Virus record (IMG/VR): IMGVR_UViG_3300044825_001878
Location: 1 to 26,430 of that record
Source: a virus
Direction: 5' to 3' (one strand)
DNA: 26,430 bases
Each line of letters starts with the position of its first letter. The first letter of the stretch is position 1. The position numbers and the translations under genes are program-made. A model generated the notes under the pieces. It made no database searches. It saw nothing but the letters and a program-made list of their open reading frames with translations, and was not told the origin of the DNA. Shown here piece after piece: positions 5,757 through 19,413 of this stretch.

Positions 5757-7467
5757 CGAAGTCGTCGTCCGCGTCACCGGTGAGAACGACACCAAGGCAG
5801 CGTTCGATGGGGCGCGGGCCGATGCGAAGAAGCTGCACAACGACATCCACGAGGACGCCAAGAAGACCGGGCCGTCCGCTGGTTCGTCGCTGGGCAAGGG
5901 CATCGGCTCCGGCCTGCTCGGTGCCATCCCGGAGATCGCCGGGGTCATCGGCAAGGGCCTCGGTGCTGCCTCGGAGTCCATCTCCGGCCTTGCCGCCTCC
6001 CCCATCGGCAAGGCCATCGGGGCTGGTGCTGGTGCTGTGGCTGGCACCGTGCTCATGGCCACGCTCTCCTCGGTGGTGGCTGCCGGTGCTGGTCTGGGCG
6101 TTATTGGCGTCGGCGTCACGGCTGCGGTCAAGAAGTCGCCAGAGATTCAGCAGGCCGGTAAGCAGGCTGGTCAGCGCTTCATGGACGCACTCGGCCGGGA
6201 AGCGGCCGTCTACAACAAGCCGATCCTGGAGGCGCTGGGCACCCTGGACGCGGCCGGTCAGCGCATTGCTGGGAAGCTCGGCCAGGCATTCGGAGCTACG
6301 GCCAAGTCCATCGGCCCGCTCGTCGACTCCATCACGTCCGGCATCGAGGCGCTGATCGACTCCATCGCCGGGATCGCCAGCAACTCCGGCGGCGCGCTGG
6401 AAGGGCTGGGCGAGGCGTTCGAGATCGTCTCCGAGTCCGTTGGTCAGGCACTGGAGTACATCGTCGGCAACGGTGAGAGTGCCGGTGACTCGCTGGTGGT
6501 TCTCGCTGGTGTGATCGGCAAGCTGATCGAGTGGGCCGGTGCCGCCATCGGATCGTTCACCGTTCTTGCCGACACGCTCGGCTTCCTCGGGCCACTCGCT
6601 GACCTGTTCCGAGACACCGGTGACGGAGCGAAGAAGGCGGCAACCGACACGAAGGTGCTGACCGACTCGATGACCGAGGCGGCCACAGCTGCCACACACG
6701 AGCGTGACGCACTGGCTAAGCTGTCCGACGAGCTGAAGGCGCAAACCGACCCGGTGTTCGGGCTCCTTGAAGCGCAGGAGGCGCTGAAGGAGGCGCAGGA
6801 CAAGACCACGGAGGCGGCCCGCAAGTACGGCCGCAACAGCCCCGAGTTCAAGGGCGCGCTGCGTGACCAGGCGCGGGCTGCTCTGGAGCTGGAGTCCAAC
6901 GCGGGCAAGCTGGGCGACACCTTCAACGGCAAGATGACCCCGGCCATGCGGGCGACACTGCGGGCTGCCGGTATCACCGAGAAGGGCATCGCCGACCTGG
7001 AGAAGCAGTTCCGGGACGCCAAGCGTGCCGGTGACCGGTTCGCCGGGACCTACACCGCGAACATCGTCACCAGATACTCGACTGTGGGCAAGAGGAATGG
7101 TGACTTCGGACGGGGTGGCAGCTACACCGGTGTCGGTGGTCTCGCATCCGGTGGCATCAAGGGCGCGGCCAACGGCTCCACCAGCTCGGGCCTGACATGG
7201 GTCGGTGAGCGGGGCGCTGAGCTGATCGACCTGCCTCCGGGGACGCAGGTTCACTCCTCGGGCGATTCGGACCGCATGATGAGGCAGGGCGGCGGGCTGG
7301 GTGGCTCGGCGCGTGGTGGAGACGGCGGTGAGCTGAAGGTGACTCTGGTGTTCGATCCGTCGCAGGCTCCGGAGGCGATTCAGGGGCTGATGAAGGGGAT
7401 CCGTGCTGAGATCCGTGATGGTGGCGGTTCGGTGCAGACGGTGCTCGGTGTGGCGGGGGTGTCCTGA
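5749..7467 (+). CDS. Tape measure protein (short)
   Basis: This 572-residue protein has a GTG start that overlaps the end of the chaperone frame. A charged helical N-terminus is followed by a long Gly/Ala/Ile hydrophobic stretch (residues about 45-130), then amphipathic helices and a coiled-coil-like segment (QEALKEAQDKTTEAARKYG). The C-terminal block SGLTWVGERGAELIDLPPGT is a hallmark of actinobacterial tape measure proteins. It sets tail length and passes through the tube. At roughly 0.15 nm per residue, 572 residues predicts a tail near 85 nm, short for a siphovirus. No muramidase or peptidase domain is visible. Confidence 0.88.
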   Translation: MDNEVVVRVTGENDTKAAFDGARADAKKLHNDIHEDAKKTGPSAGSSLGKGIGSGLLGAIPEIAGVIGKGLGAASESISGLAASPIGKAIGAGAGAVAGTVLMATLSSVVAAGAGLGVIGVGVTAAVKKSPEIQQAGKQAGQRFMDALGREAAVYNKPILEALGTLDAAGQRIAGKLGQAFGATAKSIGPLVDSITSGIEALIDSIAGIASNSGGALEGLGEAFEIVSESVGQALEYIVGNGESAGDSLVVLAGVIGKLIEWAGAAIGSFTVLADTLGFLGPLADLFRDTGDGAKKAATDTKVLTDSMTEAATAATHERDALAKLSDELKAQTDPVFGLLEAQEALKEAQDKTTEAARKYGRNSPEFKGALRDQARAALELESNAGKLGDTFNGKMTPAMRATLRAAGITEKGIADLEKQFRDAKRAGDRFAGTYTANIVTRYSTVGKRNGDFGRGGSYTGVGGLASGGIKGAANGSTSSGLTWVGERGAELIDLPPGTQVHSSGDSDRMMRQGGGLGGSARGGDGGELKVTLVFDPSQAPEAIQGLMKGIRAEIRDGGGSVQTVLGVAGVS

Positions 7468-10313
7468 TGGCCAGCCTGTACGGCAACAGCGACTCCCCCA
7501 TCATCGAGGCCCTAATCAGCGGTGTGTGGACCGACATCAGCTCCCGGGTGCGTGGGGACCAGAAGTGTGTGATCTCGCGCGGGCGGGCTTCTGAGCAGGC
7601 GCGCACCACCGCTCAGCGCCTCAACCTGACCCTCGACAACGCGGACGCCTACTTCTCCAACCGGGCTCCGCTGTCGGCCAACTACGGCCTCATCGGTAAG
7701 AACACCCAGATCCGCGTGCGGGCCGGAGAGGAGGCCGCCGATCGCTACCTGAAGCTGCCATACACCGAAGCCGAGAGCGACGCCGGAGCGGAGACGGCCG
7801 ACAAGGCAGTCCTCGACATCACCGGCGACATCGACGTGCGTGCGGAGATCATGCCTCGCACGTGGCGTCCGACAGACGACATGATCATCGCCTCGAAGTG
7901 GAACTTCACGAACAACGCCCGGTCGTGGATGGTAGCCGTCGACACCGAAGGCAAGCTGTCTATCGCCTGGACGACCGACGGCCTCTTCGCCACCAGGCGC
8001 ACTGCCACTTCCACGGTTGCTGTTGACGCGTCGTCCGGAAGGCTGGCAGTCCGCTTCACCCTGGACGTCAACAACGGCGCAGGTGGCGTCACAGCCGCGT
8101 TCTACACCTCAACGTCGATCGGTGGAACCTGGACACAGCTCGGCACCAACGTGGTCTCGGCGACAACGTCGTCCATCTACAGCGGCTCGGCCAACCTGGC
8201 GGTCGGGCGCGGCGACGACTACCGAGGGGCGAACACCGCGAACCGCATGGGCTTCGGTGGCCGGATCTACGAGATGGAGGTGCGCAACGGCATCGGAGGC
8301 ACCCTGGTCGCCGACTTCTCCGCGACCGGACAGGCTCTCGGAGCCACCTCCTGGTCTGACGGGCTGGGCACCCCGAACACCTGGACGGTCGGCGGCACTG
8401 AGGTCGGCGTTCGGGTCACCTCCGACCGGGTGCGGTTCTGGGGCGAGCTGACCAACCTGCCGCAGCGCTGGGACACAACCGGCACCGACGTGACCATCCC
8501 GGCCCTAGCCACGGGGATGCTGCGTCGCCTGTCGCAGGGCGCTAAGCCTCTCGACTCGGCCATGACCCGCAACACCCGCCGCCGTGACCCGTACGCCTGG
8601 TGGGCACTGGAAGACGGCTCAGGGGCCACGTCAGCAGCCTCTGGCGTGTCTGGTGGCCGGGCGCTGACGTTGACCGCCGCGCAGCTCGGCGACACGGATA
8701 AACCGCCCGGCTCCAAGTCGGCGCTTGCGTTCACGGGGGCCACCTCGCAAGCCATCATTCAGAGCTTGCCAGTGCCGACAACCACCGGCGTCCTGTCGCT
8801 GGTGTTCTACATGCGGATGGCTGCCCTGCCTGCTACCAAGTCGATGTTCGCCTCGTTTGCGACACCTGGTACCGCACGCCGCATCGAGGTTGGCATCGCC
8901 TCGGGAGCCTGGTACGTCGACTTCTACGACAGCACCGGCGCAATCATCGGCAACCAGTCGGTTGCAGTGACGCCCGGTAATAACCCGGCCCTCGGATGGG
9001 TCGGGTACAACCTGCTGCTGGAGCAATCGGGGGCTGACCTGAACTATTCCCAACGCTGGGACCAGGTCGGCGTTGGGCTGGGTGGCGGTGTCGGCCCGGT
9101 CACGATCTCATCGGCGACGGTACAGCCAATCAACTCGGTGCGGTTCTATGCCTCAGGGGCGTCAGAGTTCCAGGCGTTGAAGCTATCGCAGGTGTTTCTG
9201 TCAACGGAGTCCTTTGAGCTGTCCGACGCTGGGTTCCGGGACGCCTCCAACGCCTACTTCGGCGAAACGGCCGTAGACCGCCAGGTCCGCCTGTGCGCTG
9301 AGGAGGGTATCTCGTTCGAGCACGAAGGCTTCGCCTCAGAGTCCGAAACGATGGGCTTCCAGACGATGACGACCTTCCCGGACCTGATGAACGAATGCTG
9401 GGAAGCCGACGGTGGGGTGGCCAGTGAGGCGCGTGATGCGCTGTTCATCAGCTACAGGACTCGTGCAGATCTAGAGAACAACAACAACCTGACGGTGGCT
9501 TATCCGTCAGGTCTGATGTCCGAAGTGCCGCAACCGGACGACGGGGACCAGGGGCTGCTGAACGACGTCACCGTACGTCGTTCGTCCGGGTCGACGGCCC
9601 GCGTGCAGGTCATCGACGGTCCCAACTCGATCAACTCTCCCACGGCCACACCGCCGGGCGTCGGGGTCTACGACACGGACCGAACCCTGAACGTCGCCTA
9701 CGACGATCGGTTGCCATCGATCGCAGGGTGGATCGCGCTGGTCGGGTCGTGGGATGCCGACCGGTATCCGCTGGTGGCCTTCGGGATGCACCGACAGCAG
9801 CTGCTGTCCGACGACGCGCTATTTGCGCAGGTCATGAAGGTCAACCTCGGTGACACGCTCACTCTCTCCGACATGCCATCATGGATGTCTCCGGACGACG
9901 TACCGGAAATCGTCCAGGGCATCGACGAGGTGTTGGGCAAGTTCCTGTGGGAGATCAAGCTCAACTGCACCCCCGGTGGCCCGTACCGGGCGACGGCGAC
10001 TCTCGGCGATGACACGTACGTACCGCGCCTGGACGCCACCAGTCACACCACCGGTGGATCGTTGACCACCACGGCGACCTCGGTGTCACTGGTGACCCCT
10101 GCCGGGAGCGCGCGCTGGGTGGACTCGGCCACCTACCCGGGCGACTTCCCCATGGACATCGTCATCGGGGGTGAGGTGATGAGCCTGACCGCCGTGACCG
10201 GCACTAGCAGCCCGCAGACGGGCACGGTGACCAGATCGATCAACGGCATCGTCAAGTCGCACTCCTCCGGCGCGCTGGTACGACTGGCCCGCCCGTTCTA
10301 CATCGGAAGGTAG
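7467..10313 (+). CDS. Large minor tail protein with two concanavalin/LamG-like regions
   Basis: This 948-residue protein is coupled to the tape measure gene by TGATG. The N-terminus (MASLYGNSDSPIIEALISGV; then SRGRASEQARTTAQRLNLTL) resembles distal-tail/hub starts. Two beta-sandwich-type regions are suggested: about residues 110-285 (DVRAEIMP, SKWNFTN, YEMEVRNG) and 375-590 (YAWWALEDGSGA, LVFYMRMA). The C-terminal third resembles hub or receptor-side segments (PSGLMSEVPQP, IVIGGEVMSLTAVTG). It probably fuses distal-tail, baseplate hub and carbohydrate-binding functions in one chain, as in several actinophages. This is inferred from layout. Confidence 0.75.
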   Translation: MASLYGNSDSPIIEALISGVWTDISSRVRGDQKCVISRGRASEQARTTAQRLNLTLDNADAYFSNRAPLSANYGLIGKNTQIRVRAGEEAADRYLKLPYTEAESDAGAETADKAVLDITGDIDVRAEIMPRTWRPTDDMIIASKWNFTNNARSWMVAVDTEGKLSIAWTTDGLFATRRTATSTVAVDASSGRLAVRFTLDVNNGAGGVTAAFYTSTSIGGTWTQLGTNVVSATTSSIYSGSANLAVGRGDDYRGANTANRMGFGGRIYEMEVRNGIGGTLVADFSATGQALGATSWSDGLGTPNTWTVGGTEVGVRVTSDRVRFWGELTNLPQRWDTTGTDVTIPALATGMLRRLSQGAKPLDSAMTRNTRRRDPYAWWALEDGSGATSAASGVSGGRALTLTAAQLGDTDKPPGSKSALAFTGATSQAIIQSLPVPTTTGVLSLVFYMRMAALPATKSMFASFATPGTARRIEVGIASGAWYVDFYDSTGAIIGNQSVAVTPGNNPALGWVGYNLLLEQSGADLNYSQRWDQVGVGLGGGVGPVTISSATVQPINSVRFYASGASEFQALKLSQVFLSTESFELSDAGFRDASNAYFGETAVDRQVRLCAEEGISFEHEGFASESETMGFQTMTTFPDLMNECWEADGGVASEARDALFISYRTRADLENNNNLTVAYPSGLMSEVPQPDDGDQGLLNDVTVRRSSGSTARVQVIDGPNSINSPTATPPGVGVYDTDRTLNVAYDDRLPSIAGWIALVGSWDADRYPLVAFGMHRQQLLSDDALFAQVMKVNLGDTLTLSDMPSWMSPDDVPEIVQGIDEVLGKFLWEIKLNCTPGGPYRATATLGDDTYVPRLDATSHTTGGSLTTTATSVSLVTPAGSARWVDSATYPGDFPMDIVIGGEVMSLTAVTGTSSPQTGTVTRSINGIVKSHSSGALVRLARPFYIGR

Positions 10314-10961: not shown

Positions 10962-13010
10962 TCAGGCAGCGCGCTGAGCCTTCAGGGTCCAACGGCCGTG
11001 CGAGGCCTGCTCTACCAGCCCCTGCTCGCGCAGGTCCTTCAGGTGCTTGAACACCATGTCCCGGCCGATGCCCGCTTCGGTGGCGATGTCCTTCCAGGAC
11101 GTGCGCCCGGCCTTCACCGCGTCGAGCACCCGCTGAGCCGTGCCCTCCACCTTCGGGCCGTGGCCGATGAACTCCGACTTCAGGCTGAAGGAGGTGAAGG
11201 CCGAAGCGCCTCCGGTGGCCTGAGAGCGCTGCTGCGGCACGCGGACCGGAGCGGGCACGTGTTCCCCGCGCTGAGCCGCTTCGTGGCGTTCACGGCGCTT
11301 CTGGACCCGCCGCTTGGCCTCCTCCAGGTCACCGTCTGCCGTCGACTTGCGGTCCCGGTAGGCCGGGCTCAGGTCAAGAGCAGTCATCGGAGAAACGGAG
11401 CGCCAGAAGATGGAGCCCATGTTGCTGGCCGTCGTGTCGTCGTCGTCGTAGAACCCACGCATCATCGCCTTGCGCGAGCCCTCACCACCAGCCACGAAGC
11501 CGTAGCCGCCACCGGACGGGATCGAGCGCATCGTCGCCGAGGGCACCCCGAAGATGTTGCCGCCCGCCGCCTCCTCGCTCTTGAGCAGGACGCCGTTCGC
11601 ACCCTTGATGTTGTTGCGGATGGCCGCCGGGTACTGGCCACCACCACCGAACGTCGGCAGCGTCGCCTCCTGGCCCGCAAGGATGATGCCCACCCCAGCC
11701 TTGTTGCCGGTGGTGGCGATCCGAGCGACCAGGCGCTGCGTCTCCTCCCAGAACTCCGGGTTGTTCTGCTTGTCCAGCACGAGCTTGCACTCGTCCAGGA
11801 TGATCAGCAGCCCGGGGCGTTCCTCGGTCGGGGTGAAGCCCTGCACGCCGTTGACCTTGTTCTCGTCGCCCTGCATCACGATGACGTCCACGGCCTCGCG
11901 CAGCATCTGGACGATCTGCTCCGGCTTGCCCGCGTAGTAGTCGGCGTGACGCATCAGCAGCGGCGAGGACAGGCCATCCTGACCGTCGGCGAACCAAACG
12001 GCCGTCGGGAACTGCTGAGAGCCCGCCGCCGTCTGGGCGATGTTCTCCAGCAGCCGCGACTTACCGGATCCGGTACCACCGGCGATCATGCCGTTGTGGA
12101 TGCGGTTCGTGCTGTAGAGCTTCCACAGCGCCTTACCCTCGCCGTCGAGGTACGGCCCGATCCAGATGGTGCCGTCGCTGTTCATCGCGCCCAGGCCCGG
12201 CCAGCTGGTACCAGCCGCCACCGGGGAGCTGTCGATGATGGTGATCAGCAGCGTCGGGGCCTCCAGCGTCGGGTGTTCCTCGATGATCAGCTTGTGGTTG
12301 CGCTTGAGGCGCAGGCCCGAGCGGATCTTCGCAGCCAGGTGCTCGATCTCCTCCAGCGTGTGCGTGCCCGGCACGACCTCCATCGCGTACCGCGCGCCGA
12401 AGCGCAGGTGCTCATAGTGGGTCAGCGCCGTGCCGTGCAGGATCTTGCCCGGACCGGCCAGGTTCTGCTCCCACAGCGGGCTGTAGACATCGACCTCGGG
12501 GGTCGGCGCGTAGATCGCCTCCTCCTTCGGGGCATCCCAGCCGTAGCCCAGCCGGTGGTCAGCCCAGTGCCACAGTGAGGTGCCGATCCCGACGATCGCG
12601 AGAGTGAACATCATCGGCCCGGTCACGCCGGTCAGCATCGCGGCCACCGTCCACCCGGCAGCCGCTGCCAGGAAGGCGTAGACGCGAGTCCGGCGCTTCA
12701 CACACAGCAGGCGACGCTTGGCCTGAACGCCGAGCACGACGGCCACAGCGAAAGCTGCGATCGACGTGGCAATGGCGATCTCGGCGTCAGCGCCGGTCTG
12801 GTGCATGGCGATCCGTGCGGCCGTAGCGGCGATGGCGACCGAGGCGATGGCGACCCACGGCTTGCTCATCTCGACGATCTGCTCGCGGTCCGCGCCGGGG
12901 GCGACGGGACGAGCGGCGTAGTCGGACGCGGCCTCGGAGATCTTCGCCTTGATCGGGTCGGTGAGCCACTGGGTGTAGGTCTGGGTGGTGGTGGCAGTCG
13001 TGGTGGTCAT
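10962..13010 (-). CDS. Membrane-anchored FtsK/SpoIIIE-type DNA translocase (TraB-like)
   Basis: This 682-residue protein has start ATG 13010 with AGGAG 8 bases upstream. Hydrophobic segments near residues 51-70, 78-96, 110-130 and 132-148 suggest a membrane anchor. The motor has Walker A GGTGSGKS (311-318) and Walker B LLIILDE (401-407). After a basic linker a winged-helix-like domain occupies about 622-675 (WKDIATEAGIGRDMVFKHL). The order anchor, motor, winged helix matches both FtsK and the Streptomyces plasmid transfer protein TraB, whose winged helix reads an 8-bp repeat. Neighbours are small membrane proteins, as in plasmid spread regions. It probably moves double-stranded phage or plasmid DNA through a membrane. 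A role in segregation is an alternative. Confidence 0.85.
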   Translation of the reverse strand: MTTTTATTTQTYTQWLTDPIKAKISEAASDYAARPVAPGADREQIVEMSKPWVAIASVAIAATAARIAMHQTGADAEIAIATSIAAFAVAVVLGVQAKRRLLCVKRRTRVYAFLAAAAGWTVAAMLTGVTGPMMFTLAIVGIGTSLWHWADHRLGYGWDAPKEEAIYAPTPEVDVYSPLWEQNLAGPGKILHGTALTHYEHLRFGARYAMEVVPGTHTLEEIEHLAAKIRSGLRLKRNHKLIIEEHPTLEAPTLLITIIDSSPVAAGTSWPGLGAMNSDGTIWIGPYLDGEGKALWKLYSTNRIHNGMIAGGTGSGKSRLLENIAQTAAGSQQFPTAVWFADGQDGLSSPLLMRHADYYAGKPEQIVQMLREAVDVIVMQGDENKVNGVQGFTPTEERPGLLIILDECKLVLDKQNNPEFWEETQRLVARIATTGNKAGVGIILAGQEATLPTFGGGGQYPAAIRNNIKGANGVLLKSEEAAGGNIFGVPSATMRSIPSGGGYGFVAGGEGSRKAMMRGFYDDDDTTASNMGSIFWRSVSPMTALDLSPAYRDRKSTADGDLEEAKRRVQKRRERHEAAQRGEHVPAPVRVPQQRSQATGGASAFTSFSLKSEFIGHGPKVEGTAQRVLDAVKAGRTSWKDIATEAGIGRDMVFKHLKDLREQGLVEQASHGRWTLKAQRAA

Positions 13011-13093: not shown

Positions 13094-13630
13094 TCAGTCG
13101 TTCCCGCTGAGGAACGAGCGGTTGCCGTGCTCGCCCCCGATCGCGTCGCTGGCGTCCTTCACGGTGAGCTGGTCGGTCAGCAGCTGAAGCAGCCGCTCGG
13201 CCACCGGCAGTGCCTCGTCGAACGCTGCCTGGATCTCGTATGCGGCGTCGATGGTCATCTGCCCGTTGTCGGTGTCCAGCAGGTGGTTCACGAAGGCTTC
13301 GCCACCGGGCGTGCCGAGTTCGGTGCAGGCGTCCACCATCAGCTGCGCGTGGTCGATGGACTGCTGAAGGCCCTGGACCTCCGGGTTGATGTCGATGCTC
13401 ACGTCGTTCTCCTTCGGGGCGAATCGCTTGAACAGGGGGATGACCTTGGCCAGTGGCCGGTCGTCGTCTTCGGTCTCGTCGGGGTGGTGGGAGATGAACT
13501 CCCTGGGTGGCTTCTGGATCTTCCGTTCGGGCACGTTGCCCTTGAGGGCGTTGATGATGTTCACCGCGCCGCGCTGGGCCACATGGATGGCGGCCACAGC
13601 GGCGACGCAGATGAACAGGGTCTCGATCAC
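13094..13630 (-). CDS. Small membrane-anchored helical protein, transfer cluster
   Basis: This 178-residue protein has start GTG 13630, chosen because it overlaps the upstream stop as GTGA; longer frames upstream are shadows. Residues 1-25 (VIETLFICVAAVAAIHVAQR) form one membrane segment. A basic, then acidic linker follows (KIQKPPREF, HHPDETEDDDRP), and the C-terminal 100 residues are helical and acidic. It lies between the translocase and another membrane protein in one leftward operon. A Spd-like accessory role for the translocase is inference; no family is recognised. Confidence 0.65.
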   Translation of the reverse strand: MIETLFICVAAVAAIHVAQRGAVNIINALKGNVPERKIQKPPREFISHHPDETEDDDRPLAKVIPLFKRFAPKENDVSIDINPEVQGLQQSIDHAQLMVDACTELGTPGGEAFVNHLLDTDNGQMTIDAAYEIQAAFDEALPVAERLLQLLTDQLTVKDASDAIGGEHGNRSFLSGND

Positions 13631-14028
13631 TTGCCGAGGAGGCTGATGCCCCACCAGATCAGGCCGCCCACGACGATGGCGCGGGCAGGGCGCTCGAACA
13701 CCCACTCGACAGTCCGGGCGACCAGAGCCATCGGCAGGGCGACGAGCCGCCAGTACCAGACGCCCGCCTCCCGCATCCAGCGGTGCCCTCCGAAGATCCA
13801 GGGGGCGTGGTGGGCGTAGTCGCGCATCTCGGTCCAGGCCGGGCGGGGCTCGGTGAGCAGGTTCGGCGGGATGATCAGGGACCGGAACTTACTCTCCGTG
13901 GCCGGAACGGAGGCCGGAACTTCCGCCCGACCCGTCCCGATTCGTACCGTTTCGTCTACCGGATTGAGTCCCGAAACCGGGGTTTCGCTGTCCGACCGGA
14001 ACGACCGGAATTCACTCTGCGTGGTCAT
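13627..14028 (-). CDS. Small protein with C-terminal membrane segment, transfer cluster
   Basis: This is a 133-residue protein from ATG 14028, preceded by AGAGAGG at 5 bases. A GTG at 14043, overlapping the upstream stop as GTGA, is an equally possible start. The N-terminal 50 residues are polar with repeated FRS triplets (SEFRSFRS, SKFRS). The C-terminus is hydrophobic and Trp-rich (YWRLVALPMALVARTVEWVF, VGGLIWWGISLLGK). The N-terminal coding DNA carries five copies of G(A/G)CCGGAA. It resembles no enzyme. Position suggests a membrane component next to the FtsK/TraB-like protein. Confidence 0.6.
   Translation of the reverse strand: MTTQSEFRSFRSDSETPVSGLNPVDETVRIGTGRAEVPASVPATESKFRSLIIPPNLLTEPRPAWTEMRDYAHHAPWIFGGHRWMREAGVWYWRLVALPMALVARTVEWVFERPARAIVVGGLIWWGISLLGK
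13880..14010. repeat. Five dispersed G(A/G)CCGGAA octamers
   Basis: GACCGGAA occurs at 13880, 13994 and 14003, and GGCCGGAA at 13900 and 13912, all in the same orientation within 131 bases of the small membrane-protein gene. Octamers of this look recall the GACCCGGA repeats recognised by TraB of plasmid pSVH1. They could also simply encode the repeated FRS residues. Confidence 0.5.
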
Positions 14029-14039
14029 CTCTGCCTCTC

Positions 14040-15038
14040 TCACTTCTCGTTCTCAGCGAGCAGCTTGGCCAGCTCGTCGTCGATGTTCATGGCCTTCAGC
14101 TCGACCTCAGCCGCGTCGGGCTGCGCCTCGATCTCCTTCTTCATGCCGGAGACCTTGCCAACGCTGATGTTCATCTCAGCGGCGATGGCGCGAACCGACT
14201 TGCCTTCGTTCAGCAGCTGCCGGACGGTGTTCAACTCGGCGGCCCGGTCGGTGTTCACCGGCTTGGCCTTCGGGGTGTTCATCTTCTTCGCGGTGTTCAT
14301 CTTGGAGGTGTTCACCGGCTCAGCCGGGGTGTTCATCTGAACGCTGGCCGGGGTGTTCATCTCGGGCTCGGCGGTGTTCATCTGAACGCTGGCCGGGGTG
14401 TTCATCTCGGTGTTCATCTGAACGGTCGCGACGTGTTCAACCGGGTGTTCATCGTGCTGTTCAACCGGGTGTTCATCTGCGCCCTGAACAGCGGAAACCT
14501 CGATCTGAACGCCGGTGTTCAGGGTGTTCATCTGAACGCTCGGCTGAGTGTTCATCTCGGTGTTCACCGGGGTGTTCATCTGAACGCTGGCCCGGTGTTC
14601 ATCGCTGGTGTTCAACTCGGCCGTGAACACCTTGTCGCCGGTGTTCATCTGAACGCTGGCCGGGGTGTTCATCTGAACGCTGCGGTGGTCCGCCCCGAGG
14701 CCCCGGATGGCGAGTGAGGCGACCATGACGACGCCGTCGTAAGCCAGCGGAAGCAGGTAGGCGACGAAGGCGGGAACCTTGTGGTCGAGCGCCATGGTGG
14801 CCAGCCCGACGTACGAAGCGATTCCAGCACCGCCACCGACGACGATCGCTGCCGCGTAGAGCGGCAGGCTTCCCTTGCCTCGGGCCACGAGCGCTTCGAG
14901 GAGAAAGATCACCGCAGCGAAGCCGACGGGGACGACGGCCATCAGCGCGCCGCCGAGACGGTCCTCGCCGTGCAGGAAGTTGGCGACGGCCGATACGCCG
15001 ATGAACGCGAGGAAGACGAACCAGGCGACGACCTTCAT
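14040..15038 (-). CDS. DUF2637/SpdB-like membrane protein with MNT repeats and C-terminal HTH
   Basis: This 332-residue protein has start ATG 15038 after a strong AGAAGGAGG; a longer frame to 15134 lacks such a site and crosses the promoter. Four hydrophobic segments lie near residues 3-22, 28-50, 58-82 and 89-112, as in DUF2637 proteins of Streptomyces plasmids and phages. Residues 120-272 are a repeat region (VQMNTPAS, EMNTPAS, PVNT; also DEHPVEQ/DEHPVEH). Residues 272-303 look like a helix-turn-helix (VRQLLNEGKSVRAIAAEMNI). It is the first gene of the leftward translocase operon and may connect membrane, DNA array and translocase. The family call is fairly sure, the function is not. Confidence 0.75.
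   Translation of the reverse strand: MKVVAWFVFLAFIGVSAVANFLHGEDRLGGALMAVVPVGFAAVIFLLEALVARGKGSLPLYAAAIVVGGGAGIASYVGLATMALDHKVPAFVAYLLPLAYDGVVMVASLAIRGLGADHRSVQMNTPASVQMNTGDKVFTAELNTSDEHRASVQMNTPVNTEMNTQPSVQMNTLNTGVQIEVSAVQGADEHPVEQHDEHPVEHVATVQMNTEMNTPASVQMNTAEPEMNTPASVQMNTPAEPVNTSKMNTAKKMNTPKAKPVNTDRAAELNTVRQLLNEGKSVRAIAAEMNISVGKVSGMKKEIEAQPDAAEVELKAMNIDDELAKLLAENEK
14227..14672 (+). repeat. Array of 22 oriented GTGTTCA(T/C/A/G) octamers
   Basis: Read on the + strand, GTGTTCAT occurs 15 times, GTGTTCAC 3, GTGTTCAA 3 and GTGTTCAG once, at 14227, 14251, 14275, 14293, 14308, 14329, 14353, 14374, 14398, 14410, 14433, 14445, 14469, 14515, 14524, 14548, 14560, 14572, 14595, 14608, 14641 and 14665. 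One reversed copy is at 14623. Common spacings are 24 and 12 bases. Seven copies extend to GTGTTCATCTGAACG, containing the inverted repeat GTTCA-N2-TGAAC. Several copies are read in another codon phase. Confidence 0.9.
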
Positions 15039-18897: not shown

Positions 18898-19413
18898 CCC
18901 TCCCACTCGATCTTTCTTCAGGCGCGTCGAGTAAGGCGACCCTTAGTTCGTCTCGGGACTTAGTTCGTAACTTCGTACGTAGCCGGTTACGTAGAAAGTC
19001 CACCGCCCCTGAGCTGCGAAAACGTCGTCGTCGGGGGGCTTAATTCGTTAATTCGTTTCTTTCGTAGGGGAGAGCACGGGTGTGCCGGTAGACCCGTACC
19101 CCCGTATGTGTGACCTAGGCCACTCCTTAAACGATGTCCATTTTTTAGATAACTTACTTACTTATTTATATATATGCAGGTCAGAGGCTCTTTGTTACCC
19201 CATCATCGGGGGTGGGTGTTGGAGACGCCTCCCCTCACCCACTCTCCCCCCTACGAAAGAAACGAATTAACGAAAGAAGCAGGTCAGGGCCACGAAAAAA
19301 GGTACGTACGAACTACGAACTAACTCTGGGAGGGCGCTTCGTACGTAGACCGACCGCCTGGAGGTCCCACTCACCTCCCCGATGAGCCTTTGATCTTCCC
19401 TTCCTCGTACCCG
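18898..19413. other. Symmetric non-coding region, candidate replication origin
   Basis: About 515 bases without a credible gene lie between the leftward replication genes and the rightward recombination genes. The centre is strongly AT-rich (19140-19176, with a T6 run, repeated ACTT and a TATATATA tract) in an otherwise very GC-rich genome. On the left are six TTCGT units (18947, 18964, 18972, 19044, 19052, 19061). On the right are six in the opposite sense, ACGAA (19253, 19262, 19270, 19292, 19308, 19315), plus one TTCGT at 19338. An unwinding element flanked by mirror iterons at a divergent gene junction next to a replication gene is what an origin looks like. Operator array or attachment site are alternatives. 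Confidence 0.7.
18960..19348. repeat. Nested inverted repeats around an AT-rich core
   Basis: A perfect 27-bp inverted repeat has arms at 19044-19070 and 19248-19274 (left arm begins TTCGTTAATTCGTTTC). An outer imperfect pair lies at 18960-18981 and 19303-19323 (right arm begins TACGTACGAA; the arms match as 10+10 bases around a 2- versus 1-base centre). A 12-bp direct repeat CTTCGTACGTAG is at 18971 and 19337. TTAGTTCGT is repeated at 18943 and 18960. The inner symmetry centre (about 19159) falls inside the AT-rich tract. Confidence 0.9.

Follow-up and report, generated by a model that had tools for sequence, protein, structure and literature searches.

The window, a viral record of 26,430 bases, carries siphophage genes (terminase, portal, protease, head-tail adaptor and tail proteins) together with genes for ERF and YqaJ-type recombination proteins and a DUF3987 helicase. 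No integrase was found among the window proteins searched. A roughly symmetric non-coding region at 18960–19345 adjoins the DUF3987 helicase gene, with TTCGTA/TACGAA repeats flanking an AT-rich stretch (TTTTTTAGATAACTTACTTACTTATTTATATATATG); this region is likely the replication origin. The head genes are divided between both ends of the window, and in a related phage contig, IMGVR_UViG_3300023275_000039 (L002/L003), the contig ends fall between the two genes that correspond to the array gene and translocase described below. These arrangements suggest circular or permuted genomes.

The operon of concern lies on the minus strand. It consists of the array gene (14040–15038), two small open frames and the gene for an FtsK/TraB-like translocase (10962–13010). 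The array-gene reading frame as listed extends to 15134, but the ATG at 15038 is more likely to be the start, since AAGGAGG precedes it and the homologue in phage L003 starts at the matching point. The small protein encoded at 13627–14043 (minus strand) overlaps the end of the array gene and has one hydrophobic C-terminal stretch; a counterpart is found in the related phages L039 and L002. These phages also have counterparts of the C-terminal part (EVQGLQQSI...) of the next frame, 13094–13705 (minus strand). The translocase, P0002, ends in a winged helix (residues about 627–671). Its score against the NCBIfam plasmid_TraB model (NF041214) is 26.7, so that the curated cut-off of 800 is not reached, and on sequence grounds P0002 is a distant FtsK/TraB-like protein.

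Pfam, hydropathy and AlphaFold together predict that the array gene encodes a DUF2637-like protein with four transmembrane helices, a disordered linker and a C-terminal helix-turn-helix (HTH). The DUF2637 (PF10935) match scores 23.0 bits against a cut-off of 22.8 and covers only 49 of the 161 model positions; the L003 homologue, at 21.7, is just under that cut-off. The four membrane helices (residues 33–147) are encoded by 14694–15038 (minus strand). AlphaFold places them at residues 29–55, 59–84, 90–117 and 122–147 with moderate confidence, and hydropathy also gives four. This membrane part is 73% identical in L039 and 67% identical in L003. The linker (residues 148–294; 14253–14693, minus strand) is the location of almost all array copies, that is, linker codons and array coincide almost exactly. 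AlphaFold, run on a three-sequence alignment with low overall confidence, leaves residues 142–293 disordered (pLDDT about 30) and makes the C-terminus helical. Modelled alone, the C-terminal 75 residues form a helix-turn-helix with a core pLDDT of about 90. The HTH (residues 295–337; recognition helix SVGKVSGMKKEIE; 14124–14252, minus strand) is the proposed array binder, its assignment by Pfam being weak (E 4e-4). A Foldseek search with the HTH gave nothing below 0.1 and only generic resolvase/LuxR-type matches. The segment 14040–14252 also yields a weak NCBIfam match of the HTH to the CRISPR repeat-binding protein Cbp1 (E 0.0075).

The array spans 14227–14671 and contains 22 forward copies (plus strand) of GTGTTCA, read TGAACAC on the coding strand, a single reverse copy at 14624–14630 (minus strand), and the near-copies TGAACGC, TGAACAG and CTGTTCA. 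A recount confirmed what the initial annotation had reported, namely the array coordinates, the 22 forward copies and one reversed, the DUF2637 call and four phase-shifted copies. Enrichment was likewise confirmed by counting across the whole window, which has 29 copies, as against a shuffle mean of 2.35 and a shuffle maximum of 7. The array holds 23 of the 29, and the other six are spread over the remaining 25.9 kb, a frequency that would predict about 0.1 copies in 446 bp. The repeat had been described as an octamer with one variable base in one orientation. The repeat is real, but its eighth base carries little information, and the core is TGAAC(A/G)C. The single orientation holds for the 7-mer (22:1) but is incomplete, as TGAAC half-sites are present on the plus strand too and the 5-mer core splits 26:11. 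Seven of these half-sites form dyads with GTTCA, of the form GTTCA-NN-TGAAC, starting at 14331, 14376, 14412, 14526, 14574, 14643 and 14667 (extent 14331–14678, either strand), and L039 has two perfect dyads, GTGTTCA-NN-TGAACAC. Array spacing is irregular, often 12 or 24. An Rfam search for structural RNA gave no match, and an RNA-level signal was dropped as a candidate because the relatives use both orientations.

The copies are read in more than one phase. Eighteen are read as x-Asn-Thr (12 MNT, 3 VNT and 3 LNT), and the other four, shifted by one phase, give Glu-His (three DEH, and VEH at 14433). Three of the phase-shifted copies, at 14433, 14445 and 14469, are grouped with the near-copy CTGTTCA at 14457 in a segment read Val/Asp-Glu-His (14433–14475, plus strand); the fourth, at 14595–14601 (plus strand), is read Asp-Glu-His. 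The forward bias in the phages can be a coding effect, because TGAACAC on the coding strand reads as the polar x-Asn-Thr or Glu-His, whereas the reversed word gives Val-Phe, Val or Cys-Ser, which are less fit for a disordered linker.

Related array genes were found in phages and plasmids. The phage L039 has the same word, TGAACAC; as it was found by searching for that word, it shows an association and not a frequency. In the phage L003 the word is CCGAGCA. Nine pSLE1-type Streptomyces phage-plasmids of 90 kb have TGAGCC, in 17–22 copies, in both orientations and in all phases. Orientation in this group is about 11:9, and polarity is thus not conserved. Seven other plasmids have GTCACG (L019, L020, L023, L026, L035, L037, which is pSCL2, and L038, which is pSCL4). 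In the window, as in each of the nine TGAGCC loci and the seven GTCACG loci, the strongest 6-mer cluster of the locus is the one inside the array gene. Of the 57 TGAGCC copies on NZ_CP108377 (89.7 kb), 23 fall within or directly beside the array gene, a stretch of about 1.5 kb, and the others are scattered over 88 kb. The operon is also conserved: in many plasmids the array gene is accompanied by small genes and a nearby GntR-type regulator, with the translocase downstream. A phage packaging site was dropped as a candidate, since the GTCACG-group arrays have no terminase gene in the stretch examined.

The survey covers phages and plasmids; scans of genome contigs gave no relatives. A tblastn search of phages and plasmids gave no matches, whether with the full-length array protein or with the membrane part alone, and blastn of the array gene against phages gave none either. 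No word was found in L008, L009 and L012, plasmid genes chosen by their position near a TraB-like gene. The plasmids L021, L022, L024 and L025 have homologous membrane domains with an array not above background, and the array is not universal among homologous membrane proteins. A weak CGGACG excess, near locus noise, is seen in L021, L022 and L024, 15–17-kb Streptomyces plasmids with array-type genes at about 6930–8070, and their transfer site may lie elsewhere. The CGTCCG/CGGACG signal of these three, and the signal in L025, were left uncounted, as they are not clearly above other clusters of the locus.

Is the word kept for the peptide or for the DNA? Codons were shuffled within each gene with protein and codon usage kept, in 2000 permutations. 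The window gene has 23 words against a null mean of 14.7 (maximum 19), a count reached in none of the 2000. The excess is greater still in L003 (22 CCGAGCA against 8.2, 0/2000, with words in all three phases) and in L010 of the TGAGCC group (20 against 2.9, 0/2000); L039 has 14 words against 6.8. Across the TGAGCC genes the synonymous null is about 2–3 (run on seven of the nine). The GTCACG group gives a weaker synonymous excess, with 0–8 of 2000 permutations in four of the seven genes. The relatives' words were picked as the most enriched 6- or 7-mer, and lone weak p-values should not be over-read for this reason, but the excesses of TGAGCC, CCGAGCA and TGAACAC are far too large for this to matter. 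Codon choice agrees. Val before Asn-Thr is encoded by GTG in nine of nine cases in the window and L039 together, as against 6 of the 41 Val codons of the window gene, and Leu in this position is TTG or CTG in both phages, preserving TGAACAC. L039 often has Val at positions where the window has Met, a swap that preserves the word.

Turnover of positions points the same way. In seven aligned TGAGCC genes, with 17–21 copies each and linkers only 41–81% identical, the words occupy 37 positions, of which five are common to all and ten occur in a single gene. The DNA array is thus reckoned to be under selection, because copy number stays constant while positions turn over. The initial annotation's contention that a DNA word is selected within a gene of transfer or segregation type in a phage is strongly supported by the synonymous excess, the phases and this turnover. 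Homologue comparison, which might have revealed a kept peptide with freely varying codons, instead shows the word kept while peptide and positions change. A coding by-product, that is, a low-complexity linker grown by tandem duplication whose DNA has no role, would fit with the spacings that are multiples of 12 and with parts that look duplicated. The words' independence of phase, their synonymous excess and, in relatives, copy numbers that stay constant while positions turn over make this account very improbable. As judged from these comparisons, the array is almost certainly real and selected as DNA.

The initial annotation had assigned the array to the translocase, as a site for loading or orienting it, or alternatively as a centromere-like site for that protein's own helix-turn-helix. 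Such a clt/TRS-like role for the winged helix has some grounds: the operon encodes a translocase with a C-terminal winged helix; Streptomyces TraB reads repeated 8-bp TRS in clt (PMC4170104); and in pWTY27 four TGACACC repeats lie in a clt that overlaps traA by 16 bp (PMC3583192). The distribution of words among relatives tells against it. L010 and L013 have array genes that are 93.7% identical in DNA, homology stopping at the gene, and both have TGAGCC (20 and 21 copies). Their downstream translocases are not alignable, and no match to the L010-type translocase was found on the whole L013 plasmid. L015 and L014 repeat the pattern, with array gene and word kept and translocases unrelated. Conversely, the L037 translocase is 47% identical to that of L010, C-terminal domain included, but L037 has the GTCACG word and a GTCACG-group C-terminal domain on its array protein. 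The phages supply a second example. The L002 translocase is closer to those of the window and L039 (69 and 66%) than those two are mutually (64%), and its winged helix is 48 and 54% identical to theirs, as against 42% between window and L039. The window and L039 nevertheless have the word TGAACAC in common, and their array-protein HTHs align over 63 residues with a score of 119; L002/L003 has CCGAGCA and a different HTH (L003 HTH score 33).

The translocase is therefore disfavoured as the binder, because the word is kept with unrelated translocases (L010/L013, L015/L014) and changed with homologous ones (L010/L037; window/L002). The lack of a consistent polarity in the TGAGCC group is a further argument against translocase loading or orienting. 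The evidence points instead to the HTH of the DUF2637 protein, which the initial annotation had named only among the proteins for binding assays, and we consider a translocase-read array unlikely. The word follows the array protein's C-terminal HTH and not the translocase, and the array is, on this covariation, probably read by the array protein's own C-terminal domain.

In the L010/L013 and L014/L015 pairs, DNA identity over the array gene is 90–94% and the downstream modules are non-homologous. By this comparison the array gene is exchanged as a block between elements. At another place in the L014 plasmid record (NZ_CP108469), a stretch at 80275–80544 resembles the C-terminal domain of the L010-type translocase and lies inside a frame annotated as a GIY-YIG nuclease family protein.

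We propose that the array's clustered words are sites bound by the HTH which the same gene encodes. Many copies of the protein in the membrane would bind the approximately 20 sites within that gene, and the bound protein would hold the phage or plasmid DNA at the membrane, beside the translocase of the same operon. The array would in this way act in DNA transfer, as an element for docking or spreading. As anchor, binding domain and sites are all in one gene, they would travel between elements as one cassette, and the word and HTH would be able to change together. We lean towards such a self-contained membrane tether, with the protein attached to its own gene and the element's DNA thereby docked at the membrane for the transfer operon. 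A role in membrane docking for transfer or spreading is about as likely as not. Transfer or spreading is favoured by the gene neighbourhood and, by analogy, by the SpdB2 precedent in Streptomyces (PMC4170104).

The same binder evidence would serve an alternative in which the membrane protein segregates the element by binding the array as a centromere-like partition site. In favour of this alternative, a multi-copy site adjoining the gene for its likely binder is how partition loci are usually laid out. No ParA/ParM/TubZ-type motor was identified in the operon, and none is among the family matches for the window proteins searched. The array gene sits in a translocase operon, and partition is credited to separate ParA/ParB genes in pSLE1 (PMC4487206); ParA/ParB genes are also nearby in L019. 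We regard partition as unlikely, about on a par with the translocase-read site.

Less likely again is transcriptional control, with the HTH protein acting on its own gene to block or tune the downstream transfer genes. The array does lie inside the gene directly upstream of the translocase genes, and HTH proteins often autoregulate. Against this, a roadblock would need fewer words than the roughly 20 that the gene contains, and the promoter has none; membrane anchoring is left unexplained, and in many plasmid relatives the operon has a GntR-type regulator next to it. A replication origin with initiator sites (iterons) has a precedent in the lambda O protein, which binds iterons within gene O (PMC5043065), but 18960–19345 is the better candidate, given its TTCGTA inverted repeats, AT-rich stretch and adjoining helicase gene. 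Moreover, the array region is not strongly AT-rich (62.9% GC) and the protein is membrane-bound. An origin in the array is highly doubtful.

Returning to the proposed tether, its closest relative in logic is lambda O with ori-lambda, and in biology Streptomyces clt/TraB/SpdB2. In lambda, too, a site cluster lies within the coding sequence of the binder (here, the proposed binder). Lambda O, however, serves to initiate replication, and its four sites, each of 19 bp, adjoin an AT-rich region (PMC5043065), whereas the window gene encodes a membrane protein, has about 20 words of 6–7 bp, belongs to a transfer operon and has a word that differs between elements. Like the array, clt/TRS loci, including that of pWTY27, are short clustered repeats in transfer regions of actinobacterial elements, plasmid-specific and near an FtsK-like translocase. 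Unlike the array, the known clt repeats are translocase-read (PMC4170104) and are largely non-coding in pWTY27 (PMC3583192); the array's word does not follow the translocase and sits in a membrane-protein gene. Sites inside the binder's gene (lambda O, PMC5043065) and short transfer-locus repeats (clt/TRS) are already known.

SpdB2 of pSVH1, compared by description, is integral to the membrane, binds DNA, is associated with transfer and interacts with TraB; PMC4170104 calls its binding non-specific and mentions no internal array of sites. The same paper presents SpdA of pIJ101 as a plasmid-encoded DNA-binding protein with short element-borne sps sites and a suggested role in stability or spread, but SpdA binds palindromes, and neither a membrane location nor sites inside its own gene are described for it there. 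FtsK KOPS and SpoIIIE SRS are also short repeated words near an FtsK-like protein, whereas the array is one local cluster, with mixed orientation in relatives. KOPS and SRS octamers are polar and genome-wide. In the literature searched, mostly outside subscription sources and so weak evidence, no description was found of a membrane protein with an element-specific word array in its linker codons that follows its own HTH.

The chances are about even that the array genes form a hitherto undescribed class of self-contained DNA-tethering genes in phages, phage-plasmids and conjugative plasmids, with an anchor, a sequence-specific domain and sites in the linker codons, word and domain changing together so that each element tags its own DNA to be docked at the membrane and transferred. 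If the tether proposal is right, there would be a second DNA-recognition layer in actinobacterial transfer, distinct from the translocase, which may help to explain how an element gets picked and held at the membrane. The large DUF2637 family, hardly mentioned in the literature searched, may then gain a function, and the array gene would be a transferable, orthogonal anchor-plus-site cassette. One DNA stretch is here under two codes, and the natural replicates make DNA-level selection measurable.

An exception among the relatives is L036, a Streptomyces albus plasmid, the C-terminal domain of which is 53–70% identical to that of the GTCACG group, yet its word is different and weaker, CGGCAC. 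Its array-type gene, at 6986–8287, precedes genes for an FtsK/SpoIIIE-domain protein, a lytic transglycosylase and a VirB4-like ATPase. L036 perhaps reflects a changed specificity or another transfer apparatus.
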